From: Deltaproteobacteria bacterium
GTDB lineage: Bacteria > Desulfobacterota > Syntrophobacteria > Syntrophobacterales > Thermodesulforhabdaceae
Assembly (NCBI GenBank): GCA_019309115.1
Contig: JAFDGW010000005.1
Coordinates: 1 to 64,000 of the forward strand
Reading direction: 5' to 3'
DNA: 64,000 bases
This document shows, piece after piece, positions 1,710 to 43,423 of the stretch. The translations under genes were made by a program, and so were the position numbers. The notes under the pieces are model-generated. The model was not told where the DNA came from. It made no database searches and saw nothing but the letters and a program-made list of their open reading frames with translations. Each line of letters starts with the position of its first letter. Position 1 is the first letter of the stretch.

Positions 1710-3106
1710 TTATCGACGATGATGCACAACTTAGAAGAAGCCTAGCCAGGCTTCTCAGCGAGGACGGTCACGAAGTAAAGGGTATTGGTTCGGGAGAAGC
1801 CGGCATAGATTACCTTTCAAATCATCCGGCAGACCTTGTCATACTTGACCTCCGTCTTCCCGGAATGGACGGAATGGAAACCTTCCAGGCTATAAAGGAA
1901 CTAGATCCGAAACTCCCTGTAATTATCATGACGGCTTATGGCACGACCGATACGGCCATTGAAGCCACAAAACAGGGAGCTTTTGACTATGTGCTGAAAC
2001 CCTTTGAGGTGAAATCTTTTCTCAAAATAGTGGATGAAGCGCTCAGAGCCGCCAATTTCACAAGAAGTCGCGTGAGCGTTAATCCCACAGAACCTGATGA
2101 GGAAATGTTCAGGGATGCGATTGTGGGACGCAGTCCCGCCATGCAGGAAGTTTATAAGGCCATAGGGAGGGTGGCGCCGACGGATGCAACGGTACTGGTT
2201 AGAGGCGAGTCGGGAACGGGAAAAGAGCTGGTTGCCAGAGCCATATATCAGCACAGCCATCGTTCGGATAAACCTTTTATGGTAATAAATTGCGTCGCTA
2301 TTCCGGAAACTCTTCTTGAAAGTGAACTCTTCGGTTATGAAAAAGGGGCATTTACCGGAGCCGTCAGCAGAAAACTCGGAAAGATAGAGCAGGCCAACGG
2401 AGGCACTATATTTCTTGACGAAATAGGCGATATGTCCTTATCCACTCAGGCAAAACTATTGAGGCTTCTCCAGGAGAAGAAAATTGAGCGTCTCGGAGGA
2501 GGCAAACCCATCCCGGTAGATGTACGGATTATCGCCGCAACCAACAGAGATCTTGAAGCCGCCGTATCCGAAGGCACCTTCAGGGACGACCTCTACTACA
2601 GGCTCAAGGTTGTAACCATTACGCTTCCTCCCTTGCGAGAACGCAGAGAAGACATATCCCTCCTGGTAGATTACTTCCTAAGGCGCAGTTCTCAAGAAAT
2701 GGGAATACCCAATCCGGGAATAACCAACGAAGCTCTGGCCTTCATGACAACCCTGGACTGGCCTGGCAATGTACGAGAACTGGAGAACACCGTGAGGAAG
2801 CTTCTCATATTTAACCGTGGTGTTCCGATAACTCAGGAAGAAGTGCAAAAAGCCCTGGCAGAAAGTCCATCATCAGATGTATATCCCCCCGACGAGGAGG
2901 CCCTCATTCGCTGGATAAGATCTCAACTCACGTCTAACCCTCAAAGACAACACCTCTTTGAGTACCTCCTGGACTACACCGCAGAACTCATCATACGCGA
3001 GGCCCTTCAGATTACAGGTGGGAACCGTTCTCAAGCAGCAAGACTGCTCGGTCTATCCCGTCCGGCTCTGCTCGGAAGGATGGAAAAATACGGCATTCGC
3101 ACCTGA
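1694..3106 (+). CDS. Sigma-54-dependent response regulator (NtrC family)
   Basis: This 470-residue protein has a receiver (phospho-Asp in [12 protein letters not shown], Lys in VLKPFE), a sigma-54 interaction AAA+ domain (Walker A GESGTGKE, sigma-54 loop GAFTGA, arginine-rich sensor region) and a Fis-type helix-turn-helix at the end ([15 protein letters not shown]). It activates transcription by RNA polymerase with sigma-54 after phosphorylation. A spacer of about 60 residues between the AAA+ and Fis domains is somewhat long. The start is the ATG at 1694, where the receiver fold begins ([10 protein letters not shown]); it lies inside the end of the kinase gene. The partner kinase is almost certainly the gene at 210. 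Targets are not proven; one of the six sigma-54 promoters in the window is a reasonable guess. Confidence 0.95.
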
Positions 3107-3165: not shown

Positions 3166-4125
3166 CTAGGAGCAGGATACAATCCATACGGTCTCCTGAC
3201 GCGCGAGTTGAAGCACCTTATTGCTCACACGGCCCAACAAAAACTCCTCTACTCTTGAAATTCCTCGACGCCCCACAACAACTGTACCATACTTCAGATT
3301 CCGGGCCTGGTTAATAATCTCCTCGGCACGGCTCGCAACGTCGGTCACAACTGTCTTTTCGGCACTAAGCCCGTAACTTGCCAGAATCTCAACCACATCA
3401 TCCATCAGCCCTTCAACCTGTCTCCGGGCATTTTCTCTTTCCTGCTCAACCCAATCGAACCACTTTGGAGGCAGAGCCGAAGGGGACATATCCGTAATGG
3501 GAGGCATTACCGTTTGTCTGACGCCCCTCAAGATGTGGACCACCCGCAAGGGGTTATTTGAATTCTCCAAAATCCGCCCGATACAGTGGGCAATCTTGGT
3601 TGACTCAGGCGAGCCATCCACTGCGAGAACAACTCCCTTTTTATAAGGGCCAGTCCCAACCACGGCAATGGGAATCATACTCAGCCTGCCCATAACCTTG
3701 CCAACTACACTTCCGAGGATCAGATCCTTGAGTCTGCTTTCTCCTCGACGTCCCAGCACAAGCAGATCATAACCTTTCTGAGCCTCAAAAATAATGTCCC
3801 GTGCAACACCTACCTGGCGCACCTCCGTCTTTACGGTTACAAGATCTCCGGAAAATCCACTGTTCAGCAGCTTGCCACGATTTTCCTCAAGCCTTTTCTC
3901 CACTCCCTGCCTGTACGCATCCAGATAAGCCCTGACCTCTTGCATCCTGTATCTTGCCACGGGATTCTGCTGAAAGTCCCAGAGTATTTCAGGCAGAGGA
4001 TTTGCCACGTGGAAAAGAACCACTTCTGTGCCTTCTTTTGGAAAAACCTCACAAATGTAATCGATAACTCGATCCGTCCATTCCGAACCATCAACGGCCG
4101 CCAGAATCCTTCTTGACCGATTCAT
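3166..4125 (-). CDS. Tandem universal stress protein (two UspA domains)
   Basis: The 319-residue protein has two UspA folds, about 1-155 and 165-319. Each carries the nucleotide-binding signature of G-2x-G-9x-G(S/T) type: GRRGESRLKDLILGS in the first half is canonical, while the second (GRRGISRVEEFLLGR) has Arg in place of the final Ser/Thr. Such proteins bind ATP or AMP and respond to energy or stress state in the cytoplasm. It is the last gene of the ten-gene minus-strand operon, 27 bases after the Pat-like acetyltransferase; Usp and acetyltransferase neighbours fit a metabolic-state output. GGAGG lies seven bases before the ATG. It converges with the sigma-54 regulator gene. Confidence 0.93.
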   Translation of the reverse strand: MNRSRRILAAVDGSEWTDRVIDYICEVFPKEGTEVVLFHVANPLPEILWDFQQNPVARYRMQEVRAYLDAYRQGVEKRLEENRGKLLNSGFSGDLVTVKTEVRQVGVARDIIFEAQKGYDLLVLGRRGESRLKDLILGSVVGKVMGRLSMIPIAVVGTGPYKKGVVLAVDGSPESTKIAHCIGRILENSNNPLRVVHILRGVRQTVMPPITDMSPSALPPKWFDWVEQERENARRQVEGLMDDVVEILASYGLSAEKTVVTDVASRAEEIINQARNLKYGTVVVGRRGISRVEEFLLGRVSNKVLQLARQETVWIVSCS

Positions 4126-4152: not shown

Positions 4153-6858
4153 TTAATCCCCGAAATATTCTTTTTCCGGAAGAGGCGTTTTCTCGAGGTC
4201 GATCACCACTTCACATTCGCCCAGATCTATTGAAAATTTCGTGGAGAAATTGAGTTTTTTAGCCAGCGCCAACATCCCTCTGTTTTCCCTCAACACCGTT
4301 CCCCAGACCTCCTTGATACCTCGCCTTTTGGCAATAACCAGGCATCTCGAAAGTAGCATCGCCCCCACGCCTCGCCCCTGCCACGGATCTCCAATCAGGA
4401 CGGAAAACTCCGCCCGTTTTCCATCAGGATCCGATATAACTCGTGCTACTCCCAGCATACGCTCGCCTGCCGAAGATGCATCCATTGCAACCAGTGCAAT
4501 TTCACGGTCGTAATCAACCTGAGTGAACCTCACCAGCATGTCTTCAGAAAGTTCCTTTAAAGGCCGAAAGAATCGATAGTATATGCTTGTAGGGGACAGC
4601 ACGTGGAACAGTTCCACAAGAAGAGGGGCATCTTCCGGTCGAATAGGTCTTACAAAAACCTCCAGCCCTCCGGAGGTTGTACCCCGTACTTCCCACTCTT
4701 CAGGATAAGGGCTTATAATGAGATGCCAAGGTGACGGGACCGAAGAGGGCTGTAAAATCACTCTTGCATCCACAACAAGAGGCTTCCCGTTGACAATAAA
4801 AAGAGGGTTCATATCAACTTCAGCCACCTGAGGGAAATCAGTGAGCAGTTGAGAAAAGCGGATGAGGAGTTCCTCAAGGGCCTCAATGTCCGCTCTGGGA
4901 AGGTTGCGAAATCCCGAAAGAATCTTGAAAACCTTTGTCTTTTCCATAAGTTCCCTTGCAAGCCCTCTGTTCAACGGAGGGAATGTGACGGCTCTGTCAC
5001 GAATTATTTCCGTGTAGATGCCGCCCATTCCAAAAAGTACGGCCGGCCCGAAGAGTGGATCGTGTTTAGCCCCGATCAAGACCTCACAGTCGGCTTTTTT
5101 GATCATTTTTTGGACACTCACGCCGTCGATGCGGGCTGAGGGGTTCCGGGATCTTGCGGATGCTACAATCTCGTCAAAAACTCCGACTACTTCCTCCGGC
5201 GATCTGACATCTACCCGAACACCTCCGGCCTCTGTTTTATGGAGGATGTCAGGGGATGCAATCTTCATCACCACAGGAAAGCCCAGATCCTGAGCAATGA
5301 GTCTTGCTTCTTCGGCGCTTCTGGCCAGATGTGTAGGGTTTACAGGAATGCCATAGGCGTCGAGAAGCTCTTTGGCCTCAATTTCCCCCATCACACCGGC
5401 GAACTCATTCATAGAGTTTTCTATGAGCTCCCGTGCTTTTGCCCGGTCGAAGGCAAGGGACCTGTTGAGTCTCGGAGGAATTTGCTGAATCACTTTTAAT
5501 TGAAGCTGTTGCTTGTAGAGATAAATAAACGACTCAATGGCACGCTCGGGTGTTTCATAAGTAGGTATATTCGCCCTGTTAAGGATATCGCAACCGAGCT
5601 GGACATTCCGCCCGCCCATCCAGACGGCAAGTATGGGTTTTGCGGCGTATCCGATTTCCCGGGCTATGCTTTCGGCAACTGCTGTAGGATCGGTCATAGC
5701 CTGAGGGGTCAGGATGACCACAATTCCGTCGATCTCCGGGGCTCTAAGACAGATCTGTATGGTTTCGAGATAGCGCTGTGGAGAGGCGTCTCCGAGGATG
5801 TCTATCGGGTTGTTGTGGCTCCACTGAGAAGGAAGAACTTCGTTTAACTTTTGAAGGGTTTCGGGTTCCAGCTTTGCTGGCTCAAAGCCCATATCGGCAA
5901 GGGCATCTGCTGCCATAACACCGGGGCCTCCGGCATTGGTGATGATCGCAAGTGACGATCCTCTTGGTCTCGGCTGTTTACCAAGCAGCTCTGCACAATC
6001 AAAAAGCTCGCCAATTGTTTGCACTCTATGAACACCGGCACGCCAGAAGGCTGCATTGTACAAGACATCCTCACCGGCCATGGCTCCCGTGTGAGATGCG
6101 GCGGCCCGGGCTCCTGCAGGAGACTTCCCCGCCTTGAGAGCAATTATCGGCTTGAGGCGGGAAACCGCCCGGCAGGCGCTCATGAATTTTCTCATATTGG
6201 GAATGCTTTCCACATAGAGAAGAATACTGGTCACCCTTGGGATATTTCCGAGGTAGTCGATGAGATCGGCGAAGTCAACGTCGGCCATAGATCCAATACT
6301 GACAAAGTAGCTGAAACCAAAGCCCTCTGCCATCGCTAGATCCAGCACGGCCGTGCATATGGCCCCGCTCTGGGAAATAAAGGCCATGCCGCCGGAAGGA
6401 GGTGTGGCAGCTGCAAAGCTCGCATTGAGCTTTCCATGAGGGACAATAATCCCGAGGCAGTTAGGACCGATAATCCTGACAGAGTACTTCCTGGCCTCCT
6501 CCAGAATCTCTTCTTCAAGCCTTCGACCCTCTGCTCCCGTTTCACGCCCTCCGGCCGAAAGCACCACAACACCTCCGACCCCTCGCTCACCGCATCTTCG
6601 AATAACTTCGGGAACAGCTGCAATGGGAACGGCAATAACCGCAAGGTCTATCTTTTCATCGATTTCCGATATGTTACCGAAACACTGCCTGTCCCACACC
6701 TTTTCGTACTTGGGATTGACGGGAAAAACCGGTCCCGGGAAGCCTCCTTCAATAAGATTCTTCATAACGGCCCAGCCGACGCTCTCCGGATTGTTGCTGG
6801 CACCAATCACGGCGATTGATTCAGGATCAAATATGCGATCGAGCCCGTAAATTCCCAT
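4153..6858 (-). CDS. Pat-like protein acetyltransferase: ADP-forming acyl-CoA synthetase domains plus GNAT
   Basis: The 901-residue protein starts with a CoA-binding Rossmann domain (DPESIAVIGAS), followed by succinyl-CoA-ligase-like domains containing the SHTGAMAG motif (His256, the phospho-His of ADP-forming acetyl-CoA synthetases), an ATP-grasp domain at about 470-690, and a C-terminal GNAT domain (about 730-880) with the acetyl-CoA loop QGRGVG. This is the architecture of Salmonella Pat and mycobacterial relatives, which acetylate acyl-CoA synthetases on lysine. Unlike Pat, the SHTG histidine is retained, so acyl-CoA synthetase activity is also possible. The start at 6858 has a strong AGGAG site and gives a 13-base gap to the upstream kinase. 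A longer start at 6900 would overlap that gene. Confidence 0.9.
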   Translation of the reverse strand: MGIYGLDRIFDPESIAVIGASNNPESVGWAVMKNLIEGGFPGPVFPVNPKYEKVWDRQCFGNISEIDEKIDLAVIAVPIAAVPEVIRRCGERGVGGVVVLSAGGRETGAEGRRLEEEILEEARKYSVRIIGPNCLGIIVPHGKLNASFAAATPPSGGMAFISQSGAICTAVLDLAMAEGFGFSYFVSIGSMADVDFADLIDYLGNIPRVTSILLYVESIPNMRKFMSACRAVSRLKPIIALKAGKSPAGARAAASHTGAMAGEDVLYNAAFWRAGVHRVQTIGELFDCAELLGKQPRPRGSSLAIITNAGGPGVMAADALADMGFEPAKLEPETLQKLNEVLPSQWSHNNPIDILGDASPQRYLETIQICLRAPEIDGIVVILTPQAMTDPTAVAESIAREIGYAAKPILAVWMGGRNVQLGCDILNRANIPTYETPERAIESFIYLYKQQLQLKVIQQIPPRLNRSLAFDRAKARELIENSMNEFAGVMGEIEAKELLDAYGIPVNPTHLARSAEEARLIAQDLGFPVVMKIASPDILHKTEAGGVRVDVRSPEEVVGVFDEIVASARSRNPSARIDGVSVQKMIKKADCEVLIGAKHDPLFGPAVLFGMGGIYTEIIRDRAVTFPPLNRGLARELMEKTKVFKILSGFRNLPRADIEALEELLIRFSQLLTDFPQVAEVDMNPLFIVNGKPLVVDARVILQPSSVPSPWHLIISPYPEEWEVRGTTSGGLEVFVRPIRPEDAPLLVELFHVLSPTSIYYRFFRPLKELSEDMLVRFTQVDYDREIALVAMDASSAGERMLGVARVISDPDGKRAEFSVLIGDPWQGRGVGAMLLSRCLVIAKRRGIKEVWGTVLRENRGMLALAKKLNFSTKFSIDLGECEVVIDLEKTPLPEKEYFGD

Positions 6859-6871
6859 AATCCACCTCTCC

Positions 6872-8173
6872 TCAGAAAAGGGCCTTTTTATTCGAGCCAC
6901 AAGCCGATGTTTTCACCTTCTTGATGCTCACGTGAAAAGTACTTCCACAACCCGGTTTTGAGTGCACCCACGTTGAACCGTTATGTCTTTCGGCAACCTC
7001 CCTGACAACGCTCAAACCCAGGCCTGATCCTGAAGAAGTCCGATTTGACCCCGGTGAAAAAAGGACATGGAAAGGTTTGAAGAGATCTTTTTGTGCTTCC
7101 TCAGGGATTCCCTGGCCATTATCTCGTACCCAGATCACATAATGAGAGGGTGTCTCATCGCAACCCACTTCTATAACATCGGCACCTCCGTGTTTGATGG
7201 CATTCTGGATCAGATTTCTGAGCGCTCTGGTAATCATGATCCTGTCGGCAACGATGACGGGCAAGTGACAGGCCGTTCGGACGGTCACCCCTAACCCTTC
7301 ACAAATTTCAGACAGTTCTTCACATACTTCCTGGACCACCGCATCCAGTGGAATATCCTCCAGCCTCATGGGCATCTCACGGGTATGCACCAGAGCATTT
7401 ATCTGCTCAAGCAGTTCCATAGCCGCCTGGCATGACTTCATAATCTGCTCACAGTAAAACTGGCCTTTGTTATCCAACATCCCTCTGCAACGGACTAGTA
7501 ACCTTCGGGCAAATCCATAAGCTGCTATGATAGGGCCTTTCAAATCGTGAGAGATACTGGACGCGAATAATTTGATTACCTCCTTCCTATCGTGAAGTTC
7601 CTCAACCTTTTTGCCCAACTGCCCCAGCAAACGACAGTGGCTGAGGGCTACAGCAACTTGCTGGCCCAGAGCCATAAGAAGATCCACTCGCTCCTGGCTC
7701 AGCCTGATTGCCTTACGACATCCCAAGTTCATAACCCCTTCAAGGCGCCCTGCAACAAGTAAGGGCACACATATCACGACGCGAATCCCACGAGAGCGCA
7801 GGATTCTGGCACGTTCAGAGTCTTCCAGATCTCTCACATGCTGAGCCAGAAAGGATTTTGTCAGCGCAGCCTTACCGGTAAAGCCCTCACCGAATTTGAT
7901 ACGCTCCAGACCGGTTACATCCATCCCTCGATGAGCCCTGAGCTCAAGGAATGTTCTGTCCTCTGACACTGCATATAATCGCCCCGTATCCATCTTGAAA
8001 CGGGACATGACTATATCCAAGCATCCCTCCATGAGCTCACATACGTTTTCCGTTTTTACAAGCCACGAACTCATTTCCATAAGGGTGGCTAGCTGACGAT
8101 TCCTCCTTGCCAGCCGGGAAGGAGAAAAAGGTATAGTAATGTACTTTTCTGTTCTATTGTTCTGTTTTGGCAT
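6872..8173 (-). CDS. Cytoplasmic GAF-domain sensor histidine kinase
   Basis: This 433-residue kinase has no membrane segment. A GAF domain (about 25-180) precedes HisKA with ISHDLKGP (His209) and a HATPase domain with the N box (NLIQNAIKHGG), DNGQGIP and SGSGLGLSVV boxes. GAF domains sense small ligands or redox state in the cytoplasm. It lies between the PEP-synthase-like gene (11 bases upstream) and the Pat-like gene (13 bases downstream) in one operon, so its signal could be metabolic. No receiver is directly beside it; the operon's stand-alone receivers further upstream are candidate partners. GAGG precedes the ATG. The domain call is sure; the ligand and partner are not known. Confidence 0.92.
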   Translation of the reverse strand: MPKQNNRTEKYITIPFSPSRLARRNRQLATLMEMSSWLVKTENVCELMEGCLDIVMSRFKMDTGRLYAVSEDRTFLELRAHRGMDVTGLERIKFGEGFTGKAALTKSFLAQHVRDLEDSERARILRSRGIRVVICVPLLVAGRLEGVMNLGCRKAIRLSQERVDLLMALGQQVAVALSHCRLLGQLGKKVEELHDRKEVIKLFASSISHDLKGPIIAAYGFARRLLVRCRGMLDNKGQFYCEQIMKSCQAAMELLEQINALVHTREMPMRLEDIPLDAVVQEVCEELSEICEGLGVTVRTACHLPVIVADRIMITRALRNLIQNAIKHGGADVIEVGCDETPSHYVIWVRDNGQGIPEEAQKDLFKPFHVLFSPGSNRTSSGSGLGLSVVREVAERHNGSTWVHSKPGCGSTFHVSIKKVKTSACGSNKKALF

Positions 8174-8184: not shown

Positions 8185-10821
8185 TTAAAGGGTTCGACCC
8201 CTCTCGAGTTCCTTAAGATCTCTTAAAAACCTCTGCCTGTATTGGTCCACGGACGATAAATCGGTCATAATCATATCTAGTTGTCTCGTATGTATGATAA
8301 TGTATCCCAAAATGCGAAGCCGGCCAAACATGATGTCTTCAGAATAGGCTTCAATACGAGCTTCAAGAGAGTCTTCCACCATGCGGGTATTGAATCCGTA
8401 ATCCTCCAGAATATCCTGAATAAAAAGGGCTCTCATAACCCTTCTTTTCAAATCCGCCGCTCCGCCCTTAAATCGAAAGCTTACGTAATTTTCTTTAGTT
8501 CTTTCGCTGACATAGGCTTCCACTGTCGAAAAATGAAATCCAAAACGGGACTGAAGACTGCAATAATCACGTGAAATCATGAAATAATTTTTCACGGAGT
8601 AGGGAGATGACAGGCCGGGGTCAAGGTGTGGATTCATGGTAGCTTCGTAGAGGATGGCCATAAACCCTTGTGTATCAACCGGAGGTGGTCCCTGCCACGG
8701 AACCGCCGTCATTCCTTCCCATAGAGCTATCATAGGCTTACACACAATCTGATCGAGAGACACATAGGATCCTTCCACGTCCTCCCCAAAGCCTCCGTCC
8801 AAGTCCAGTATCCAGAACTGCATGGGAACATCGGTTACCAGTCTTTTGGCACTCTTTTGAGGGAAGGTTTGATCAGTCCCGAAGCTGAACATTTCCACCA
8901 CAGCCTTTTCGTGACAGAAGCGTGTAATGTCGTGATAGGTTTTGCAATGTTTGGGATGGAAGTGGGGTGAGTCGGGATCAAGCAGTGTGAGTGGGATGAT
9001 ACTGGGAGCGATTCTGCTCAGCAGGTTGTGTACGGGTGTTCCGGTCATAAGGGCCCCTGTAGCCCCTCCCACGTGCACGGCCATTCCTTCCTGTTCTCCC
9101 TCGAGTATCTGACACCTGTGAGCATCAACTGTAACTGTCTGACCTTCCTTAAGGATTTCCATTACTCCGGAAATCCCAAAAACAGCTGGTACATTGAACT
9201 CTCTTGCCACATGAGCCAAATGCCCCACAATGCTCCCTTCTTCGGTCACAATGGCAGCAGCTCTCTGGAGCGCCGATGCCCACACGGGCAGAGCCTGCGC
9301 TGCCACAAGAACGGCTCCTTCGGGTACGCGGAGTAGATCTGCATAGCGCTTCAAGAAAAACACCGGCCCCGAAGCAACACCCGGGGAGACCGTATTCCCA
9401 CCCTGGAGAATTACCGTCCCCTCTACTTTGGCCTCCCAATCGGAACCACTCTTGGGGATTGACTGAAGTGGCCGTGTTTGAAGAAAGACAAGCCTTCCTT
9501 TCCGGTCAACCGCCCATTCAATGTCTTGAGGTTCGCCGAAGTGCTCATCTACCTTCATTGCCATACATGCCAGATCTGTAATCTGTTCATCCGTAAGAGA
9601 CGGTTCCATGCGCTCCGTTTCAACCACCTTAACCCTGCAAATCCCCTCATCGGGTAAGCACATAACTTTTCGATCTTTATCGCGAATCTGTTTTTCAATT
9701 ATCCGATATGGCCTCTTACGGGTCACAATGAACTCATCGAACCGACCGGTTCCATCGACCACGGCCTTTGGAAGCCCCCATGTGGAGTTGATCAAGAGTA
9801 CATCCTCATTTCCAAAGGGGTGCAGGGTGTACAGAACCCCTCCTGACACTGCATCCACCATGGCCAAACACCCAACGGCCATGGCAAGCCCTTCCTCCAA
9901 AATGCCGTGCCGGTATCGATATGTTATAGCAGTCAAGTTGTAGAGGCTGGAAATTACTTCTTTGTAGGCATTGAACACGAAATCCTCCGATACATTAAGT
10001 ACCGATCTATACTGGCCGGCAAAGGAGACACCTTTCGAATCTTCACCGATAGCGCTGGACCGCATGGCCAGCCTAATTGATGGACCCATCTTTTCTTTCA
10101 TGCCTTCAAGATGCCTCTCCACTTCAAGCTTAACTTGCTCAGGGACCGGGCTATCCAGAATAGCCTTTTGAACACGTGTGCTCATGCGGTAAAGATCGTC
10201 CATATCATTGCGGTCGGCACTCTGAATTATCCGGGCTATTTCCTCATGAAGCCCCGATTCCTCGATAAACAAGCGAAATGCTTCAGTTGTGATAACAAAC
10301 CCTTCGGGCACAAGTATCCCAAGCCTGTTTTTGAGCTCTCCTAGATTGGCCATCTTGGGCCCCACCAGGTCGGCATGATCACTGCTTACGTCGGTAAGAT
10401 CCATCACCAGGGGACGGGAGGCTCCGTCCGAAAGGCTATTCAGTTCTGTGCTATCAAGCTCCTTCTGGATCTTTTGCCTGATGGATTCGAAGGTATCAAA
10501 AAGCTCACCATATTTGCCCGGAGCAAGCAGATTGAGATTTTGGACCATGGTGTAAACCTGGGTGGTGATCTCAGTGCAGGTAGCCTTTATATAGGACATA
10601 CCGAAGGGGCGGGTACCACGAAGTTTTTCCTCCATATCGGTCATGAGAGTAAGAGCGCGGTTGTTTGCTGCGATAAGGCGCCTGAAGGCCAGATAACGGG
10701 ATTGAAATGTAAGGCGGAGTTCTTTTATATTCTGAAAGTTGTGGGAAGATGGCCCATCTGAGGGTGAGAAGATTGATCTGGTGAGACGCTTTATGGCTGT
10801 AATCAAGCCTTTTATGGCCAT
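8185..10821 (-). CDS. PEP-synthase-like protein: PPDK ATP-grasp and phospho-His domains with an unusual C-terminal domain
   Basis: The 878-residue protein begins with about 120 residues of helices of unknown role. A PEP synthase/PPDK-type ATP-grasp domain follows (RSSAIGEDSKGVSFAGQY; IEWAVDRKGRLVFLQTRPLQ), then the swivelling phospho-histidine domain (IVGHLAHVAREF, His534). The last 250-270 residues do not look like the PEP/pyruvate TIM barrel that normally ends these enzymes; they carry motifs such as HDITRFCHEK, LDLDGG, NYVSFRFKGGAAD. ATP-dependent phosphorylation of the histidine is therefore likely, but the acceptor is unknown and ordinary PEP synthesis is doubtful. A paralogue lies at 22677-25286. 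The start at 10821 is preceded by AGGAAGG; the next upstream gene is 107 bases away in the same operon. Confidence 0.85.
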   Translation of the reverse strand: MAIKGLITAIKRLTRSIFSPSDGPSSHNFQNIKELRLTFQSRYLAFRRLIAANNRALTLMTDMEEKLRGTRPFGMSYIKATCTEITTQVYTMVQNLNLLAPGKYGELFDTFESIRQKIQKELDSTELNSLSDGASRPLVMDLTDVSSDHADLVGPKMANLGELKNRLGILVPEGFVITTEAFRLFIEESGLHEEIARIIQSADRNDMDDLYRMSTRVQKAILDSPVPEQVKLEVERHLEGMKEKMGPSIRLAMRSSAIGEDSKGVSFAGQYRSVLNVSEDFVFNAYKEVISSLYNLTAITYRYRHGILEEGLAMAVGCLAMVDAVSGGVLYTLHPFGNEDVLLINSTWGLPKAVVDGTGRFDEFIVTRKRPYRIIEKQIRDKDRKVMCLPDEGICRVKVVETERMEPSLTDEQITDLACMAMKVDEHFGEPQDIEWAVDRKGRLVFLQTRPLQSIPKSGSDWEAKVEGTVILQGGNTVSPGVASGPVFFLKRYADLLRVPEGAVLVAAQALPVWASALQRAAAIVTEEGSIVGHLAHVAREFNVPAVFGISGVMEILKEGQTVTVDAHRCQILEGEQEGMAVHVGGATGALMTGTPVHNLLSRIAPSIIPLTLLDPDSPHFHPKHCKTYHDITRFCHEKAVVEMFSFGTDQTFPQKSAKRLVTDVPMQFWILDLDGGFGEDVEGSYVSLDQIVCKPMIALWEGMTAVPWQGPPPVDTQGFMAILYEATMNPHLDPGLSSPYSVKNYFMISRDYCSLQSRFGFHFSTVEAYVSERTKENYVSFRFKGGAADLKRRVMRALFIQDILEDYGFNTRMVEDSLEARIEAYSEDIMFGRLRILGYIIIHTRQLDMIMTDLSSVDQYRQRFLRDLKELERGRTL

Positions 10822-10928: not shown

Positions 10929-11633
10929 TCACACCTCTTTCTTCGCTCCGGCCTTCATCTCAAGGCCTATTCCGTCAAAAAGCATGAGAATCGCATATCC
11001 CCACCACACGGTGTAAAGCACATAGAAGATGAGAGCGAAAGTGAGAATCCCTGCCTTTTCGGAAGCGCTCTTGGGCTCGATGCCGTAAAAATTGTAACCC
11101 ACCTCAACGGCCCGTTTTTGAATTTCTTTTACGAGCTTTGCCCATGAGAACTGTTTCTGGCTGGCAAGTTCTCTATTTAACAGGGAAAGCATTTTCCACC
11201 AGGCAAAGAGGACCTGTCTTTCGTCAACTCCGTAGCGCTGCCTTACGACTTCACCTCGATTGTAATACATATCGTCAGAGTCGACCACAGCAGCAGCCAG
11301 GATTGTCCCGAGATCACCTTTTATGTGTAGCCCATCTCCCTCCCTCCGGATGGTAACTCCATGGGTTGATAGAATCCTCTCCATGTTGGCCTGCAAAAGC
11401 TGAGAATCAACACTCAATTTCACTTCCACAATGTTTCCCTTTGCCGCTGCTGATTTCTCAGCCATTTCCTTCATGAAATAACTTGAACCCTTTGAAATCT
11501 GACTGAATAAACGGTCCGCTGCATGAAAGGCGTTTTCACCTCCAAAATAAGGCTGAAACATAACCCCCAGTATGACAAAGAAGCTTAAGCTCAATACAAC
11601 ACCGAAAGTAAATCGTTTCCCATGTCTAACCAT
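10929..11633 (-). CDS. Bitopic membrane protein linked to the TSUP transporter
   Basis: I do not recognise a named family. The 234-residue protein has a membrane segment near residues 8-28, a region of about 155 residues presumably outside the cytoplasmic membrane, and one or two closely spaced membrane segments near 195-222. It ends with FDGIGLEMKAGAKK, which resembles the end of the small protein beside the other TSUP gene (MERTGLDLRTRK at 42047-42346). It follows the TSUP gene by four bases and has the ribosome site GGGAGGTG, so it is surely co-translated with the transporter. I infer an accessory or sensory subunit of the transporter. Confidence 0.75.
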   Translation of the reverse strand: MVRHGKRFTFGVVLSLSFFVILGVMFQPYFGGENAFHAADRLFSQISKGSSYFMKEMAEKSAAAKGNIVEVKLSVDSQLLQANMERILSTHGVTIRREGDGLHIKGDLGTILAAAVVDSDDMYYNRGEVVRQRYGVDERQVLFAWWKMLSLLNRELASQKQFSWAKLVKEIQKRAVEVGYNFYGIEPKSASEKAGILTFALIFYVLYTVWWGYAILMLFDGIGLEMKAGAKKEV

Positions 11634-11637
11634 TTTG

Positions 11638-12927
11638 TCACACCTCCCCTCTGAGAATCCTCAGGTTTCCTACAAACTTGGACAGGACCCAGATGCCGAA
11701 GATTCCCACTAGCACGAAAAACACGCTGTTCCCAATAACATTGAAGGTTTTCACAGATGCAGAAGACATAGTGAGAACCTTCAAATGCACCAGTTTCCCG
11801 GGAAGGGCAAAGAGCCGATTCAGAAACCCCGCAAGTATGGCGGTTGCGTAAAAACCTCGAATGTACATCCCTTTAACAACCTTGGTTGTGAGAGCACCGA
11901 CTTGAATACCCAGAAGAGACCCGAGGAGCATACCCATTGCCAGCGTGTAAAAGATAAACCCGTATATTGCATACTGGCTGATGGAAGCATATCCGGCGGT
12001 GAATATGATCTGGAAAATGTCGGTCCCAACCGTTGTAAAGGATGACACCCCGAGTACATAAACGAAGATTGGAAAGGTCAGAAATCCACCTCCAACCCCC
12101 ATGATTGCTGCGACCAGACCTACAATAAAGCCTGCGGCCCCAACAAACCATGCTGAGATCCTCTTGCCACCCGGCACTAGATCCATGTCAAACTTTATTG
12201 TAGGAGGAATAGAAACGGACTGAAGCCGTGCTGGAAGCCCCACCTTCCCGGTTGCAGCCTTGGTACCCTTAGGGCTTTCACCGTGATGAGCTCCAACCTC
12301 CACACCGGATTTCCGCAGTTTCATAAAGTCAACAAAGGCATAGATGCCGAGGAACCCCAGAAGGAGAACATAAACAATGCTAATAAAAAGGTCGCTCAAA
12401 ACGGGGTTGTACTCATATATTGCCCGGTTCAGGGTTCCTCCTACTGTAACTCCAATTGTCGAACCCACAAGAAAGGCAATTGCCAGTCCTACGCAGACGT
12501 TTCCCAGCTTTCTGTGAACCGCGGTGCCCATTATGGCCTTTGCAAAGATGTGAAAAAGGTCAGTACCGACTGCGAGAATTCCCTTGATACCAGCACTCAT
12601 CAGGGCAGGCGTTATGACAAACCCTCCACCTGCTCCTATGCAGCCTGTAATGAGACCCGCGCAAAGCCCTATGATAACGGAAATCAGGAATATCTTGGTT
12701 GAGTAAAAGGCCGGAGCATACGCCGATTTTCCGCCTAGAATGTGGGGCAGTTCACCCCCAGATGCTGCAAAAGAGACGGCAAAAATCAGCGCCGGAGCGG
12801 CAATCAACCCCAGAATAAAGAGCCTCTTTCTGCTGGAAACAATGTTTCTCGCGATTTGCATCTCCCACTTCGCATGTGCTTCCGAAGCGGCAAGCAATCC
12901 CTCATAAACTCTGCGAAGTAACTTCAT
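11638..12927 (-). CDS. TauE/SafE (TSUP) family anion transporter
   Basis: This 429-residue membrane protein has about eight to ten hydrophobic segments in two halves. Each half begins with a glycine-rich signature: GCIGAGGGFVITPALM and MGVGGGFLTFPIFV. TSUP proteins move sulfite, sulfoacetate, sulfate and similar sulfur or organic anions. A hydrophilic loop of about 50 residues sits between the halves, and there is a short cytoplasmic N-terminus. It lies between two receivers and a membrane partner in the sigma-54-promoted operon. In a sulfate reducer sulfate or sulfite is a likely substrate, but direction and substrate are inferred. AGGAGGT lies before the ATG. Confidence 0.92.
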   Translation of the reverse strand: MKLLRRVYEGLLAASEAHAKWEMQIARNIVSSRKRLFILGLIAAPALIFAVSFAASGGELPHILGGKSAYAPAFYSTKIFLISVIIGLCAGLITGCIGAGGGFVITPALMSAGIKGILAVGTDLFHIFAKAIMGTAVHRKLGNVCVGLAIAFLVGSTIGVTVGGTLNRAIYEYNPVLSDLFISIVYVLLLGFLGIYAFVDFMKLRKSGVEVGAHHGESPKGTKAATGKVGLPARLQSVSIPPTIKFDMDLVPGGKRISAWFVGAAGFIVGLVAAIMGVGGGFLTFPIFVYVLGVSSFTTVGTDIFQIIFTAGYASISQYAIYGFIFYTLAMGMLLGSLLGIQVGALTTKVVKGMYIRGFYATAILAGFLNRLFALPGKLVHLKVLTMSSASVKTFNVIGNSVFFVLVGIFGIWVLSKFVGNLRILRGEV

Positions 12928-12953: not shown

Positions 12954-13394
12954 TTATTTATCCTCATCTTCATTCCCCCCCTCTGCAATCTTTCGCCTCA
13001 GGGCAATTCTGGTTTCATGCAACATCTTCTTCTGGTAAGCATCCTGCACCTTGTAGAGCAGTTCATCGATGTCCATTGGTTTCATGAGATAATCGAATGC
13101 ACCAAGCTCCATTCCCGTTACCGCCGTTTCCACATTGGCATGACCTGTGAGCATTATGACCTCAACAAGAGGGTGTTTTGCTTTAATGGCTTTGAGTGTT
13201 TCCAGGCCATCCATGCCGGGCATCTTTACATCCAGGATCACCACATCAATGGGCTCCCTACCGAGACACTCAAGTGCCTCTTCTCCGCTCTTTACGCCCT
13301 GTACATGCACCCCCCGCTTCCTCAGACGCTTCATAAGAGTTTCAAGAAAGTCCAGCTCATCATCAACAACAAGGAGTTTTATACTTTCAATCAT
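12954..13394 (-). CDS. Stand-alone response regulator receiver with C-terminal tail
   Basis: The 146-residue protein is a receiver with complete active site (VVDDE; phospho-Asp in VVILDVKMPGMDG; Thr in MLTGH; Lys in LMKPMD) and a charged helical tail of about 25 residues. There is no DNA-binding domain, so it acts through protein contact, phosphorelay or as a phosphate sink. The ATG at 13394 (ribosome site GGGAGG) overlaps the stop of the previous receiver gene by eight bases. It is closely similar to the receivers at 28583 and 30782, which also flank a transporter gene, so these may modulate the transporters themselves. Confidence 0.9.
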   Translation of the reverse strand: MIESIKLLVVDDELDFLETLMKRLRKRGVHVQGVKSGEEALECLGREPIDVVILDVKMPGMDGLETLKAIKAKHPLVEVIMLTGHANVETAVTGMELGAFDYLMKPMDIDELLYKVQDAYQKKMLHETRIALRRKIAEGGNEDEDK

Positions 13395-13782
13395 GCTTCT
13401 CCCTCCCAAGGGTGAGCGCTTTCTCTATGACCTCCAGCAGTGAAGTGAAATCGCAGGGTTTTCCCAGGTATTCAAAGGCGCCCAGGGCCTTACCTGCAGT
13501 TGCTGCTTCCTCCGAGCCATGGCCGGTAATCATAATTACCGGCATGGAAGGCTCCAGGGTTCTGAAAATCTTGAGCACCTCAAGGCCGCTCAAATCCTCC
13601 ATCTTCAGATCCACTATTGCCACATCAAAGGACCCTTTCCTCAGCTTCTGAACGGCTTCCTTTCCCGAACATGCACTCTCCACCTCATAGCCCCGTCTTT
13701 TCAGCCTTCTAGACAACACATCCGCATATGCCACTTCGTCGTCAACAATTAGAATTCGGGCCCTATTTTCACTCGCCGCCAT
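13387..13782 (-). CDS. Stand-alone response regulator receiver
   Basis: This 131-residue protein is a single receiver domain with the acidic pair (VDDE), phospho-Asp in VAIVDLKMEDLSG, Thr in MITGHG and Lys in YLGKPCD. It has no output domain. Its gene overlaps the end of the Cache kinase gene by 14 bases and the next receiver by eight bases, a kinase-receiver-receiver cassette. The ATG at 13782 is preferred to the GTG at 13788 because GGAAGG is five bases upstream of the ATG region. The upstream kinase is its probable phosphodonor. Confidence 0.9.
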   Translation of the reverse strand: MAASENRARILIVDDEVAYADVLSRRLKRRGYEVESACSGKEAVQKLRKGSFDVAIVDLKMEDLSGLEVLKIFRTLEPSMPVIMITGHGSEEAATAGKALGAFEYLGKPCDFTSLLEVIEKALTLGREKHD

Positions 13783-15511
13783 TGTCACCTTCCCGTTTCT
13801 CCTGAATTACAGGCAGATAGACCTTAAAGGTTGTTCCCTGGCCGACCACGCTGTCCACCGTGATTTCACCACCAAGCCGTTTCACTATTCCGTAGCAAAT
13901 GGAAAGCCCCAGACCGGTACCTTTACCGACGGGTTTTGTTGTGAAGAAGGGATCGAAAATTCTGGGCAATACGGATTCAGGAATACCCGGGCCCGTATCG
14001 GCCACGGTTATAACAACCCAGCCATTTTCCTGAGCCGTGCGGACAATGAGATCGCCACCCTGTGCGTCCATCGCATCCAGGGAATTATTTATTAAGTTCA
14101 GCAAGACCTGCTGTAGTTCAGATGGAGAAGCAAAAACCGGTTTGAGCCCGTTGGAACATTCAACTTTTAGGGTAACACGATCATATTTGGCCTTCTGGCT
14201 GATAACCCCTACAACATCCTCGATAACATCATTGACATTCACCTCCTGGACCCGAGCATCACTCCCCCTTGCAAAACTCAAGAGTTTCTGGGTTATATCC
14301 TTGCAACGCGCTCCCTGAGTCTTAATCTGGTGAACGGTATTGGCAATCTCGGTTATGAGATCTTCCCGCCCGGCAGACTGAGCCACAGCCTGAATATCCG
14401 GTAAAAGGTCCTCAATCCAACCCGCCTCCTCAACCATTATGGCGATGGGATTGTTAATTTCGTGAGCAACGCCGGCAGCAAGCTCACCCAGAGATGCCAG
14501 CTTACCCGTCTGAATTACCTGCTCGCTCAGCATCTCCTTTTCCCGATCCACCTGTTCAATTCTGCCCACCACCTTGTAAGAAAGAGCCCAGGCAATGAAG
14601 ATCACAGTAATTATGCTAAGAGCCACAAGGGCGATACTGAAACGCCTTGCCGAATAGAGCTCAGAAAAGGCATCACGGCTGTTCTGTTCATAAATGAGAA
14701 ACCAGTCACCCTTCTTAAGGGGTCTGGCTAAATAGAGCGTACCATCGATTTCCTTGTATATTACTGATGATGCCCCATTCACCGCGCGCAAACTTCCTGA
14801 GGGTGCATCGGCCGATTTACTTGCCAGGCTCTCAAGGATCTGTTTTGGCTCCAGTTTGGGTTGGAAAGAGACGGCAGTTTGATATTCTCCTTGCCGGTTG
14901 AGGATAAATGCTCTGCCTGTCTCTCCAACCCTTACGCTTTCAACAAGGCGGGTAAAACCGAGAAAGTTGATGGTAGCCCGCAGTATCAAAAAGGAGTCTT
15001 TATAGGGCACTTGGACAGCAACGATGAAATGAGGTAACCCCCTTAACCCCAGGAAAACATCGCTTATAAAGTAGGGCTGGGCGCTTGCCTTTTTGAACCA
15101 CTCCGCTTTCGCATAATTTGCCCTGGCAAGATGAAATGGCCCGGCATAAGCAACTTGATATCCACTAGAGTCCACACATCCAAAATCTACGTAAACTCCA
15201 CCAAAGCTCTTCTGGAAACTATATAGGATTTCCGCCAGGCTGGCACTGCTGGTAAGCTCTTCAACAGGGGTAATCGTTGCAAGTGTCTGAATCTCCGCCA
15301 GCTTTTCTAGCAGAAACTGATCAATCTGCCGCGCATGTTTCTCAACTATCTCCTGGAGGTGACTGATTACTTTACCCCGATAGGAGGTGTGAAAACGGTA
15401 ACCGGCAACTGCGGCCAAGAGGAAAAGGGGAAAAAGGGATACGGCCACTATGATTAGAGCAATGGTGCGACGGAGCGATTTATAGTAGGTATCCTCATTA
15501 TTCTTCATCAT
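13769..15511 (-). CDS. Cache-domain sensor histidine kinase
   Basis: The 580-residue kinase has a membrane segment at about 14-36, a periplasmic Cache-type sensor of about 240 residues ([38 protein letters not shown]), a second segment near 288-308, HisKA with [17 protein letters not shown] (His350) and HATPase with DTGPGIP and [11 protein letters not shown]. Cache domains of this type bind small organic ligands. The sequence after the H box (E-x-A-G-W-x-x-D-L-L) is shared with kinases at 20602 and 33080, showing a local paralogue family. It overlaps both neighbours (a degenerate receiver upstream, a receiver downstream). Confidence 0.94.
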
Positions 15512-15911
15512 CGCCCCCTCTCTTCATGCTACCGCAACAACGCTCAGCGCAACTCAGAATAGCTTCTCGGAGAGCTATCATGTTGCCCTTTTCAACAACC
15601 ACAATGCGATCGTCCCAGCCTGGCGGAATAGTTGCGTAGAGGGTGTCGGGAGTGAGATCAATTGAATGGAGTATTACAATCATGTGAGGGTTGTGCTTAT
15701 GGAGGATCTCAAAGGAGCTCCACATTCGGCCATGAAGCAATTCGGGATCCACAACAACAATGTCATAATCGACCCTCTTTCCGGCACCTACAAACCCATC
15801 ATCAGAAACGGCTTGCACCTCGTGCCCGTCTCTCAGCAGTTCCCTTTGCAGAAAGGATCGAACATGCCTGTTCTTATCGATGACCAGCACCCGACACCCT
15901 GAAATCTCCAT
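15498..15911 (-). CDS. Atypical receiver protein, first gene of the ten-gene operon
   Basis: The 137-residue protein has a receiver-like fold, with the probable phospho-Asp in IVVVDPELL, but the usual acidic pair reads VIDKN (one acid replaced by Lys), the conserved Thr/Ser position in IVILHS looks altered, and only the Lys in VVVEKG is kept. It may be poorly phosphorylated or constitutively in one state. The ATG at 15911 is chosen over that at 15932 because the sigma-54 promoter at 15953-15969 predicts a transcript beginning near 15942, too close for a ribosome site before 15932; GAGG lies before 15911. It overlaps the Cache kinase gene by 14 bases. Confidence 0.75.
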   Translation of the reverse strand: MEISGCRVLVIDKNRHVRSFLQRELLRDGHEVQAVSDDGFVGAGKRVDYDIVVVDPELLHGRMWSSFEILHKHNPHMIVILHSIDLTPDTLYATIPPGWDDRIVVVEKGNMIALREAILSCAERCCGSMKRGGDDEE

Positions 15912-15952
15912 TTTGCTCAATCCTCGCTTCATTGCCGTTCACCTGAGGTTAG

Positions 15953-19142: not shown

Positions 19143-20599
19143 GCAATGAGACTATTCTTATTGTAGATGATGAACCCGATATGCTGCGACTTCTAGAACG
19201 GATTCTCACAACCAGAGGAGGCTACCGGGTAATTAAAGACTCAGATCCTTATTCCGCACTGGAGACACTCAAAAAAACAAAGGTTAATGCCATTGTGGTT
19301 GACCTGAAGATGCCCGGGATGAACGGAATACAGTTCATCCAGGAAGCAAAGACTATACAGCCCGATGTGGAAGCTCTGGTAATTACGGCCTACGGCACCA
19401 TAGAATCAGCAGTTGAAGCGGTCAAAAAGGGGGCTTTTGACTATATTACTAAGCCGTTCAAAAAGGAAAGGCTTCTGATTGCTCTATCCAGAGCTCTGGA
19501 GTGGCGACGGATCCTTGCCGAAAACCGTAGCCTTAAAGAGGTTATCGGGGAACAGGAGGAGCACCTTGGAATAATAGGGAACAGCGAAGCCATATGTCGG
19601 GTACGACGACTGATTGCTCAGGTGGCGCCCACAGGCGCAACCGTTTTGATCACAGGTTCCAGCGGCACTGGCAAAGAGCTTGTTGCCCAGGCAATACATC
19701 GCTTGAGCCCAAGACGAAACAAAAGATTCATAAGCATAAATTGTGCTGCCATTCCCGAATCCGTCCTTGAAAGCGAGCTTTTCGGTTACGTTCGTGGAGC
19801 CTTTACAGGCGCGTGGAAGGACCGAAGAGGGCTCATTGAAGAGGCTCAGGGAGGGACCCTATTCCTTGACGAAATAGGCGATATGCCCATGGCCGTTCAG
19901 GCCAAACTGCTGAGGCTTCTCGACCAGGGCGAATACAGACCTCTTGGAAGCAACGAACTGAAAAAATCAGACGTGAGAATCATAGCAGCAACGAATAAAA
20001 ACCTGGATGAAGCTGTGGCCCATAAGACCTTTCGGGAAGACCTTTATTATCGTCTAAAGGTCTTCCACATTCATGTTCCGGATCTCGATGAACATAAAGA
20101 AGACATACCTGTTTTATCCCAATTTTTCTTGAAAAAGTATGCCAACATTCACGGGAAAACCGTAAAATCTATATCTCCAGAAGCACTCAGGCTGCTCCTT
20201 TCCCGAACATGGCCGGGAAACGTTAGAGAGCTGGCTCATGCAATTGAGCGGGCGGTTATTATGTCACCAGGTGTGGTATTGGAGACGAAGGACTTTTTCC
20301 CTGAGCAGGGGCTCCAAAAACCAGACAGTGATACACCACCTAAAGAGCCCATCTTGGATCAACCCGACACAAAGGAGCTTTCATTTATACTCTCTCTGCC
20401 TTTTAAAGATGCCAAAAACCACATAATTCGATGGTTCCATAAAATTTACATAACGTCACTACTCAAAAGATGCAGCGGTAATGTTTCTCAGGCAGCGGAG
20501 ATTGCCGGCATACAACGGCAATATCTTCATCAAATTATGAAGGAAGAAGGAATTCAGGCGCATACATTCCGTTCACGGGATGCAAGCGATATGGATTGA
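19139..20599 (+). CDS. Sigma-54-dependent response regulator (NtrC family)
   Basis: The 486-residue regulator has a receiver (VDDE; Asp in AIVVDLKMPGMNG; Lys in ITKPFK), an AAA+ domain (Walker A GSSGTGKE, GAFTGA loop, FLDEIGDMP) and a C-terminal Fis-like helix-turn-helix (GNVSQAAEIAGIQRQYLHQIMK). Its start overlaps the stop of the Cache-PAS kinase. It sits in the operon headed by the sigma-54 promoter at 16113, so it may activate its own operon and the divergent one through the repeat at 16033-16050. That link is inference from position. Confidence 0.95.
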   Translation: MSNETILIVDDEPDMLRLLERILTTRGGYRVIKDSDPYSALETLKKTKVNAIVVDLKMPGMNGIQFIQEAKTIQPDVEALVITAYGTIESAVEAVKKGAFDYITKPFKKERLLIALSRALEWRRILAENRSLKEVIGEQEEHLGIIGNSEAICRVRRLIAQVAPTGATVLITGSSGTGKELVAQAIHRLSPRRNKRFISINCAAIPESVLESELFGYVRGAFTGAWKDRRGLIEEAQGGTLFLDEIGDMPMAVQAKLLRLLDQGEYRPLGSNELKKSDVRIIAATNKNLDEAVAHKTFREDLYYRLKVFHIHVPDLDEHKEDIPVLSQFFLKKYANIHGKTVKSISPEALRLLLSRTWPGNVRELAHAIERAVIMSPGVVLETKDFFPEQGLQKPDSDTPPKEPILDQPDTKELSFILSLPFKDAKNHIIRWFHKIYITSLLKRCSGNVSQAAEIAGIQRQYLHQIMKEEGIQAHTFRSRDASDMD

Positions 20600-20601
20600 T
20601 T

Positions 20602-22263
20602 ATGGAAAGACGATATATATCATTGCAGGTAAGGATCATTTGTGCGATTTTGTTTTTTTCAGTTGTACCCCTTGTCATTTTGGGAACCTCCATATACTAC
20701 GAATTTTACCGATCTTACACCCGGCAGGTAACTGATTACCTCCGTTCTATCCTAGAAGATCGAAAACATGCTCTGGATCTTTTCTTCCAGGAAAGAATTG
20801 CCCAGCTCACCACCGTTGCCTATACCCACTCCCTTGAGCAACTAAGAAATGAAGAATATTTAGAATACATCTTCAGGCTCATGCAGGGTAAGTCGCAATT
20901 TTACATCGATCTGGGAGTGATTGATCAAAATGGAAACCACTTGGCCTACTGTGGGCCCTACAAGCTCAGAGGGGTTAACTACTCTAAGGCTCTATGGTTT
21001 CGTGAAGTCATGAGGCGAGGGATATACATAAGCGACGTCTTTATGGGTTTCAGACAGTACCCGCATTTTATAGTGGCGGTAAGCAGGCATGAAAAAGGAA
21101 GCTGGTGGATTTTAAGGGCTACCATAAACACGGACTTTTTCGAATCTCTGATCAAAACTGCTCAAATCGGCCGCGGTGGAGACGCCTTTCTCTTGAACGA
21201 GGCCGGGGTTTATCAAACCACCCCGCGCTTTCAGGGAAAGCTTCTCGATGCCATTCCAGGCTTTCGGTGGCCTCATTTTCGTGGAACTCGTGTTGCGGAA
21301 ATGAACTTTCGTGGCAGAACCTCTCTGGTGGGCACAACCTGGCTGAAAACCGTCCCCTGGCTGCTGGTCATAGCAACTGATCTTTCCGAAGAGCTGAAAC
21401 CGCTTCATCAAGCTGGAAGGCTCAGCCTCGTTATCGGCATTGGAGGTGTTCTTTTAGTTTTCCTAGGAGCCTTCACAGTATCACGCATAATGATAAATCA
21501 GCTCATAGCAGCCGAAAGAGAAAAAGAAGCCCTCGATGCAAGCCTTCTCCAGTCAAGCAAGATGATGGCCCTCGGCCGCCTCGCTGCGGGCATTGCACAT
21601 GAGATCAACAATCCACTTTCGGTAATAAAGGAGAAGGCTGGGTGGTTGAAAGATCTGCTAGAAGAAGAGGACATCGCTTTGAGCAGAAACTTCCAGGAGT
21701 TCGCCGAAGCCGTGGAAAAGATTGAATACCACGTGGACAGAGCCAGAACCGTAACGCACAGGCTACTGGGATTTGCAAGGCGCATGGAACCTTTCCAAGA
21801 ATCGGTGGATGTTAACAAGATTCTGGAAGAATCCTTGAGCTTTATAGAAAACGAGGCCTTGCATAGAAATATCAAAATTCTGCGCTCATTCGATCCGAAG
21901 ATGCCTTTTATCACAACCGATCCCTCTCAGCTCCAGCAGGTCTTCCTCAACCTCCTGAATAACGCATTGGACGCTGTAGACAGAAATGGCACCATATGGG
22001 TTGACACTTATTATAACCACCTGCGCGAAGAAGTAGTAATTCAGATCAGCGACAGTGGTCCGGGTATCCCGGAAAGCATCATAGACAGGATTTTTGACCC
22101 CTTCGTAACCACTAAAGCCTTGGGTAAGGGAACAGGGCTTGGGCTCTCTATAACTTATTCAATTGTTCAAAAATTAGGAGGATGGATAACTGCGGAGAAT
22201 TCGCGTGAAGAGGATAAAGGAGCAGTGTTTACGGTTGTTCTGCCTGCCAAGGCGCGCCTTTAG
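20602..22263 (+). CDS. Cache-domain sensor histidine kinase
   Basis: The 553-residue protein has an N-terminal membrane segment (about 10-32), a Cache sensor ([39 protein letters not shown]), a second membrane segment near 275-297, HisKA with [17 protein letters not shown] (His333) and HATPase ([18 protein letters not shown]). It is clearly a paralogue of the kinases at 13769 and 33080. The ATG at 20602 follows directly on the stop of the regulator gene with no clear ribosome site, suggesting translational coupling; a TTG at 20596 is an alternative. Confidence 0.93.
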
Positions 22264-22284: not shown

Positions 22285-22680
22285 ATGGATAAAATAGAAT
22301 GCCGGGTGTTGGTTATAGATGACGAGCAGGATTTTGTGGAAACCCTTGTAAGACGCCTTGAGAGGCGTGGGTTTAAGGCCTATGGAGCGTTGCGGGGAAG
22401 AGAAGGGCTTGATTTGCTGGAAAGGCATGAAATTGACGTTGTGGTTCTGGACATTCGCATGCCTGAGATGGACGGCCTTGAGGTCCTTGAGACCATCAAG
22501 AGACGATGGCCTTTCGTGGAGGTTATTCTTCTAACTGGACATGGCTCTCTTGAATCCAGCCTGAAGGGACTGGAGCTCGGCGCCTATGATTACATGCTCA
22601 AACCGGCAGATCTTGCCGATCTGATCAGGAAGATCAAAGAAGCCCATGAAAGGAAGCTTCTTAGAAGGGAGCAAGGGTGA
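22285..22680 (+). CDS. Stand-alone response regulator receiver
   Basis: The 131-residue protein is a receiver with intact site residues (IDDE; Asp in VVVLDIRMPEMDG; Thr in LLTGHG; Lys in MLKPAD). It lacks an output domain. It follows the Cache kinase by 21 bases and overlaps the PEP-synthase-like gene by four bases. A receiver translated together with a PEP-synthase-like protein suggests that one may control the other. Confidence 0.9.
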   Translation: MDKIECRVLVIDDEQDFVETLVRRLERRGFKAYGALRGREGLDLLERHEIDVVVLDIRMPEMDGLEVLETIKRRWPFVEVILLTGHGSLESSLKGLELGAYDYMLKPADLADLIRKIKEAHERKLLRREQG

Positions 22681-43407: not shown

Positions 43408-43423
43408 AAAGGAGGGGGTCAGC

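Follow-up and report, generated by a model that had tools for sequence, protein, structure and literature searches.

Dikinases of the swivel-His superfamily combine an ATP-grasp domain and a swivel domain bearing a histidine with a variable acceptor domain, and members in which the acceptor domain has been exchanged are already known (rifampin phosphotransferase (RPH), HpeHI and PpsAB). In RPH, the His domain comes last, after the rifampin-binding domain (PMC4844700). HpeHI, CreHI and phenylphosphate synthase (PpsAB) are dikinases with ATP-grasp and swivel parts whose acceptors are compounds other than pyruvate (PMC12167813); each consists of two proteins and functions in the breakdown of aromatic compounds. 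In PEP synthase, the two domains stand in the same chain order with the histidine in mid-chain. The swivel-His domain is also common to pyruvate phosphate dikinase (PPDK) and PTS enzyme I, both of which carry the PEP-utilizers_C barrel.

To place a PEP-synthase-like protein (PEPSL) encoded in a 64,000-nucleotide stretch of DNA (hereafter the window) among these enzymes, its domains, homologues and gene neighbours were compared with theirs. PEPSL has the superfamily layout of ATP-grasp domain, swivel His and variable acceptor domain. It shares domain order and mid-chain histidine with PEP synthase, which is the best sequence relative of residues 137–578, but has no barrel, possesses an extra N-terminal helical domain and ends in a different C-terminal domain. 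RPH, which likewise joins ATP-grasp and swivel domains to a non-barrel acceptor domain, is the best structural match of residues 135–575 (Z 39.6). By contrast with RPH, however, PEPSL places its His domain centrally, with the histidine at residue 534 of an 878-residue chain and over 300 residues still to follow, and ends in the private domain. The RPH model NF041857 scored 233.9 bits on PEPSL against a cut-off of 999. The rifampin-binding domain gave no profile match to the PEPSL C-terminal domain and did not figure in the few weak structural hits obtained with the C-terminal model, an absence that carries no weight as to shared fold. HpeI matched the ATP-grasp domain (Z 31), but whereas HpeHI, CreHI and PpsAB are two-protein systems, PEPSL carries ATP-grasp, swivel and private domains on a single polypeptide, and its genetic linkage is to signalling genes. 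To the extent of the databases and literature searched, the novelty of PEPSL lies in its pair of undescribed domains and its association with two-component systems.

The PEPSL gene is an uninterrupted open reading frame that begins with an ATG at 10821 and ends with a stop codon at 8185–8187 (Table 1). An in-frame GTG at 10932 could add 37 residues; homologues start at the ATG. In agreement with a reading made beforehand from the sequence alone (the sequence-only reading), both the ATP-grasp and phospho-His domains are intact, with Pfam matches to PPDK_N at residues 151–457 (6e-93) and PEP-utilizers at residues 500–569 (3.5e-19), an SFAGQ motif at residues 266–270 and the swivel histidine at residue 534. 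PEPSL has thus kept both ATP-using parts of PEP synthase and has lost the pyruvate-binding part. The replacement domain proposed in that reading exists, at ~290 residues rather than the 250–270 suggested. Two of the motifs ascribed to it, HDI-x-RF-x-HEK and NYVxFxF-x-GGAAD, are present, with HDITRFCHEK at residues 630–639 and NYVSFRFKGGAAD at residues 778–790; the third, a GGG loop, reads LDGGFG in this copy, and GGG itself occurs only in the paralogue at 22.7 kb. The strand, the N-terminal helical domain, the two paralogues, the two-component and TauE context, the nitrate-cluster phenotype and the kinase-less variants described below were absent from the sequence-only reading.

Table 1 Features of the PEPSL locus and related genes. 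Positions are those of the window unless another locus is named.
Feature	Position	Strand	Basis
PEPSL gene, dikinase-like, 878 aa; N-helical / ATP-grasp / swivel His / undescribed C-terminal domain	8185..10821	-	
Private N-terminal helical domain, residues ~25-122, three helices in model	10456..10749	-	model + profile
ATP-grasp domain (PPDK_N), residues 151-457; K156, R254, E435, Q448, R450 conserved	9451..10371	-	
Swivel phospho-His domain, residues 500-569; His534 = codon 9220-9222	9115..9324	-	
Undescribed C-terminal domain, residues 590-878, in the position of the PEP/pyruvate barrel	8188..9054	-	
Tandem universal stress protein	3166..4125	-	
NDP-forming acyl-CoA synthetase fused to GNAT domain, overlaps GAF kinase gene	4153..6900	-	
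GAF-domain histidine kinase, 11 nt downstream of PEPSL	6872..8173	-	
h234, 234 aa, hydrophobic stretches at both ends (read from sequence), directly upstream of PEPSL	10929..11633	-	
TauE/SafE-type permease (PF01925), 4 nt upstream of h234	11638..12927	-	
Receiver-only response regulator	12954..13409	-	
Receiver-only response regulator	13387..13788	-	
dCache histidine kinase	13769..15511	-	
Receiver-like 144-aa protein, below Pfam cut-off	15498..15932	-	
Histidine kinase upstream of the 22285-22680 regulator; resembles the dCache kinase at 13769-15511	20596..22263	+	
Receiver-only response regulator, ~12 nt upstream of second PEPSL	22285..22680	+	
Second PEPSL paralogue, 37% identical	22692..25286	+	
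Kinase-less 393-aa variant, followed by dual-specificity phosphatase gene	L142 2277-3458	-	
Kinase-less 393-aa variant, followed by dual-specificity phosphatase gene	L143 3308-4489	-	

The replacement of the barrel was supported by each of the profile and structure comparisons applied to the C-terminal domain. No credible Pfam family was found at residues 590–878, a search with the domain alone returned no Pfam match at E<=10, and there was no NCBIfam match. When the genome was searched with the barrel family PF02896, its PPDK (contig 19) and an enzyme-I-like protein (contig 28) were detected, serving as positive controls, but none of its three PEPSLs was. Similarly, a profile–profile comparison of 118 C-terminal sequences with the genome's own barrels gave a probability of 0.3–0.4%, whereas the N-terminal part of that alignment reached 99.3% against PPDK. 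In AlphaFold2 models, the C-terminal part was predicted to form helices around an antiparallel sheet (residues 745–824) rather than an eightfold beta-alpha barrel, with moderate confidence for this domain (pLDDT 75.9, built from 10 sequences); fold searches with residues 135–585, conversely, recovered the RPH, PEP synthase and PPDK folds (best Z 25–40). A known fold for the C-terminal domain was sought and rejected: its profile matched nothing in the PDB below E 0.3, RPH included, Foldseek on the model found no match at E<=0.001, and the best VIA-align hit (Z 7.1 over 65 residues) was to designed ferredoxin-like folds. Since that match reflects no more than a common arrangement, we offer only that the domain contains a ferredoxin-like stretch.

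These data bear directly on whether PEPSL might still be a PEP synthase with a diverged or circularly rearranged barrel. Annotation pipelines would give it that name, and NCBIfam PEP synthase models (TIGR01418, NF005057) do match residues 137–578; the match, however, spans only the first 466 of 798 model positions, and the scores fall well short of the equivalog cut-offs (348.7 against 598 bits and 336.7 against 739.75 bits). Together with the PF02896 result, the profile comparison and the predicted antiparallel alpha/beta fold, this makes such a reading extremely improbable and close to refuted. The last ~290 residues of PEPSL are not a PEP/pyruvate barrel, and are predicted to adopt a non-barrel alpha/beta fold; an ordinary barrel, the structural result named in the sequence-only reading as its refutation, did not emerge.

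The architecture proved to be widespread. The genome holds three PEPSL copies (two in the window, at 8185–10821 and 22692–25286, and one on contig 19), and a profile of the C-terminal domain matched 146 of 395 sampled Desulfobacterota genomes, nearly always in open reading frames of ~850–980 aa. Within a single family of the phylum, PEPSL was present in 101 of 149 genomes, at up to nine copies each. A profile of the N-terminal helical domain, run on ten genomes, fell in open reading frames of PEPSL size (~800–1080 aa) in 35 of its 36 matches. The four domains therefore constitute a stable unit, as both private profiles match PEPSL-sized frames almost throughout. Nor is the architecture a product of chance or of a frameshift, because the whole layout recurs across these 146 genomes and the 118 aligned homologues share invariant residues. 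A scan of 84,980 genomes with a narrow peptide pattern gave seven matches, all in Deltaproteobacteria or Desulfovibrio-type records. One 1838-aa frame that appeared to be a fusion was set aside as most likely a read-through of a false upstream frame.

Conservation extended to both halves of the protein. Among the 118 homologues, catalytic residues were kept in 112 (R254 in 116, E435 in 114, R450 in 115 and H534 in 112), and the C-terminal domain displayed a near-invariant set comprising H630, D631, R634, H637, G703, H763, G786–G787, R797, G839 and D849 (H630 in 116 sequences; D631, H637, H763, G786, G787, R797, G839 and D849 in 116–118). Six homologues departed from this pattern: in four, the kinase residues and the histidine were replaced together while the C-terminal set remained intact, and two were without the swivel domain. 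Two further proteins of 393 aa consisted of the N-terminal helical and C-terminal domains with nothing between them. Phosphotransfer is thus not needed everywhere, given these dead cores, swivel-less copies and two-domain proteins. The retention of the private C-terminal domain in kinase-dead and kinase-less proteins implies a function separable from phosphotransfer, and the pattern of conservation suggests that the private N- and C-terminal pair has such a function and that most copies have been selected to keep phosphotransfer as well. This recurring pair defines two new domain families. The idea that loss of the swivel domain always entails loss of H630 had to be dropped, since the position is R in two such proteins, Y in one and H in the fourth. 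In loci L109, L110 and L006, a kinase-dead PEPSL (His to Arg, ATP-grasp Glu lost) is paired in tandem with an intact one, the two being separated by a regulator or kinase gene.

The existence of these variants is what would be expected if PEPSL were a non-catalytic scaffold or ATP sensor, in which phosphotransfer is incidental and the private domains do the work; the kinase-less two-domain proteins, the intact C-terminal domains of kinase-dead copies, and the position of three of the four dead copies beside an intact paralogue all fit it. We nevertheless regard this as quite unlikely, since H534, E435, R254 and R450 are kept in ~95% or more of the homologues and about two events on the tree suffice to account for the losses of an intact kinase.

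In the window, the PEPSL gene lies in an operon-like array of signalling and transport genes (Table 1). The protein h234, which had no Pfam or NCBIfam match, usually sits between TauE and PEPSL and represents an undescribed family, perhaps a permease subunit. The acyl-CoA synthetase–GNAT protein of the same operon (4153–6900) might act as a Pat-like protein acyltransferase and not as an acetate–CoA ligase. The flanks (159–3106 and 15498–36616) form a dense two-component region with many histidine kinases and both receiver-only and NtrC-type regulators, interleaved with a DASS permease (29092–30777), a CBS-domain protein and a chemotaxis-type receptor. At 42370–44871 (plus strand), the window encodes a further TauE-type permease, followed by an anchored protein of 264 aa and with no PEPSL beside it; similar pairs of TauE and a ~266-aa protein adjoin PEPSL genes elsewhere (loci L086 and L092). 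Two tandem tRNA genes, 16 nt apart, lie at 45602–45796 (minus strand). A defence role was considered and found no PADLOC match, and no sign of viral or plasmid carriage was found.

The same partners recurred across the family. Within 6 kb of 78 PEPSL genes and on the same strand, raw counts (homology-weighted gene picking at loci chosen by PEPSL similarity, with no random-gene baseline and with some spurious antisense clusters remaining) were 48 for response regulators, 44 for histidine kinases, 38 for TauE and 33 for h234, followed by NtrC-type regulators (19), universal stress proteins (14), acyl-CoA synthetase (7) and DASS permease (4). The nearest labelled upstream gene was h234 in 24 of 76 cases and a regulator in 16, most of these regulators being receiver-only (125–165 aa) and ~35 nt or less from PEPSL; 26 of the 76 had no labelled gene just upstream. 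The commonest order was kinase, regulator(s), TauE, h234 and PEPSL, as in the window from 13769 to 8185, and in another order a regulator directly preceded PEPSL, as at 22285–22680 and 22692. In the window's own genome, which has only seven TauE genes, two of the three PEPSL genes have one of these no more than two genes away, for which the chance is ~5 in 10,000 if gene positions are random (~2,300 genes, estimated). These partners point to a role in signalling ahead of anion uptake, and not in PEP synthesis.

The closeness of regulator and PEPSL genes invites the idea that PEPSL phosphorylates or dephosphorylates the receiver itself, as an ATP-fed side entry to the relay within the two-component system. 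Receiver-only genes abut or overlap those for PEPSL, with most gaps between −13 and +35 nt, and are also found between tandem PEPSL genes. We know of no swivel dikinase that passes its phosphoryl group to a receiver, which counts against this idea, and we judge it very unlikely.

The permeases raise another alternative, in which PEPSL is a catabolic small-molecule dikinase: the permease would import an organic or sulfur-containing anion, which PEPSL would phosphorylate with ATP and so trap, in the way that RPH, HpeHI and phenylphosphate synthase treat their substrates, the C-terminal domain being the substrate site. Its first two domains are those of RPH, HpeHI and phenylphosphate synthase, the near-invariant His/Arg/Asp/Gly-Gly set of the C-terminal domain resembles an anion site as judged from sequence, and PEPSL has permeases beside it and, at some loci, an acyl-CoA synthetase; HpeHI and PpsAB are proven precedents (PMC12167813). 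However, besides h234 the commonest upstream partners are short-gap receiver-only regulators rather than catabolic enzymes, and the C-terminal residues are kept even in kinase-dead and kinase-less copies. On balance, and in light of the nitrate phenotype discussed below, we consider a catabolic role possible but unlikely.

One clade of PEPSLs has a further partner. In 10 of 10 members, a 350-aa protein with a dual-specificity phosphatase domain is encoded directly downstream, mostly at 0–36 nt, and both 393-aa kinase-less proteins also have a downstream dual-specificity phosphatase. Several of these loci read histidine kinase, regulator, PEPSL and phosphatase, with TauE upstream in two. A search of the window's own genome, made without a positive control, found no such phosphatase.

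The gene set and order of the phosphatase clade are also those of a Desulfovibrio cluster with a known phenotype, the 'nitrate cluster' (DVU0251–DVU0245 in D. vulgaris; Dde_0597–0605 in D. alaskensis), which like the PEPSL loci includes TauE, a small conserved protein, a histidine kinase, a receiver-only regulator, a dikinase-like protein and a phosphatase. D. vulgaris with insertions in DVU0246 (a transposon insertion), DVU0247, DVU0250 or DVU0251 grew equally with or without 100 mM nitrate, whereas mutants of DVU0245 (dual-specificity phosphatase, 1110 bp) had no such nitrate resistance (PMC4001038). DVU0251 is TauE, DVU0250 a small protein and DVU0247 a receiver (360 bp), while DVU0246 (744 aa) was annotated with PPDK ATP-grasp and PEP-utilizing mobile domains (PMC4001038). 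The D. alaskensis counterparts gave a similar though not identical picture, and for the phosphatase and h234-like genes fitness was not the same in the two strains (PMC4001038). Korte and colleagues suggested a leaky thiosulfate transporter and gave the dikinase-like gene no role (PMC4001038). The cluster differs from the window's operon in having a PtxB-like gene and the phosphatase, both absent from the latter, and in the 744-aa length of DVU0246. On the basis of synteny and domain content, DVU0246 is probably a PEPSL orthologue. Provided that transcription runs from 0251 to 0245, an insertion in DVU0246 cannot silence TauE by polarity, and the dikinase-like gene itself would therefore be needed for nitrate sensitivity. 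Such a phenotype would be predicted for a permease regulator, and would not be expected of the presumed orthologue if it were purely a catabolic kinase acting after import.

Taken together, these observations lead us to favour, tentatively and with somewhat less than even confidence, a model that casts PEPSL as a swivel-type ATP dikinase in which a private acceptor or regulatory domain has taken the place of the barrel, and as the output of a histidine kinase and receiver-only regulator pathway setting the activity of an anion permease (TauE, sometimes DASS type). In this model, a sensor kinase would phosphorylate the receiver, and the receiver, perhaps via the private N- and C-terminal domains, would license PEPSL. 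By analogy with RPH and HpeHI, ATP would then phosphorylate His534, and the swivel domain would carry the phosphoryl group to the C-terminal domain, from which it would pass to an acceptor, candidates being a protein (the permease, h234 or a regulator) or a small effector. The transfer would switch anion uptake on, and in one clade the adjacent dual-specificity phosphatase may reverse it. The architecture, conservation and linkage behind the model are computed and the nitrate phenotype comes from the literature; orthology, His phosphorylation, the acceptor and the direction of control we infer. The proposal in the sequence-only reading that PEPSL could be a dikinase acting on a new acceptor, which might be a protein, is possible and fits the kept catalytic residues and, in one clade, the strictly linked phosphatase. 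A bolder formulation, which we put forward as doubtful, is that PEPSL represents an unrecognised class of signalling enzyme, a PEP-synthase-derived dikinase serving as a two-component output that switches anion permeases by protein phosphorylation, opposed by the clade-specific phosphatase and with kinase-dead or kinase-less copies as regulatory partners.

PEPSL proteins are abundant in sulfate-reducing bacteria and are bound to be annotated as PEP synthase or 'PEP/pyruvate-binding'; no stated function for them was found in the literature searched. If PEPSL gates anion uptake, this would explain the nitrate resistance of Desulfovibrio with a broken 'pyruvate dikinase' gene, the mechanism of which was left open in 2014 and which is of practical interest for the control of oil-field souring. 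If true, it would also provide a new route by which two-component systems act without transcription, many of the regulators concerned being bare receivers. Protein phosphorylation under receiver control, if shown, would merit its own category.
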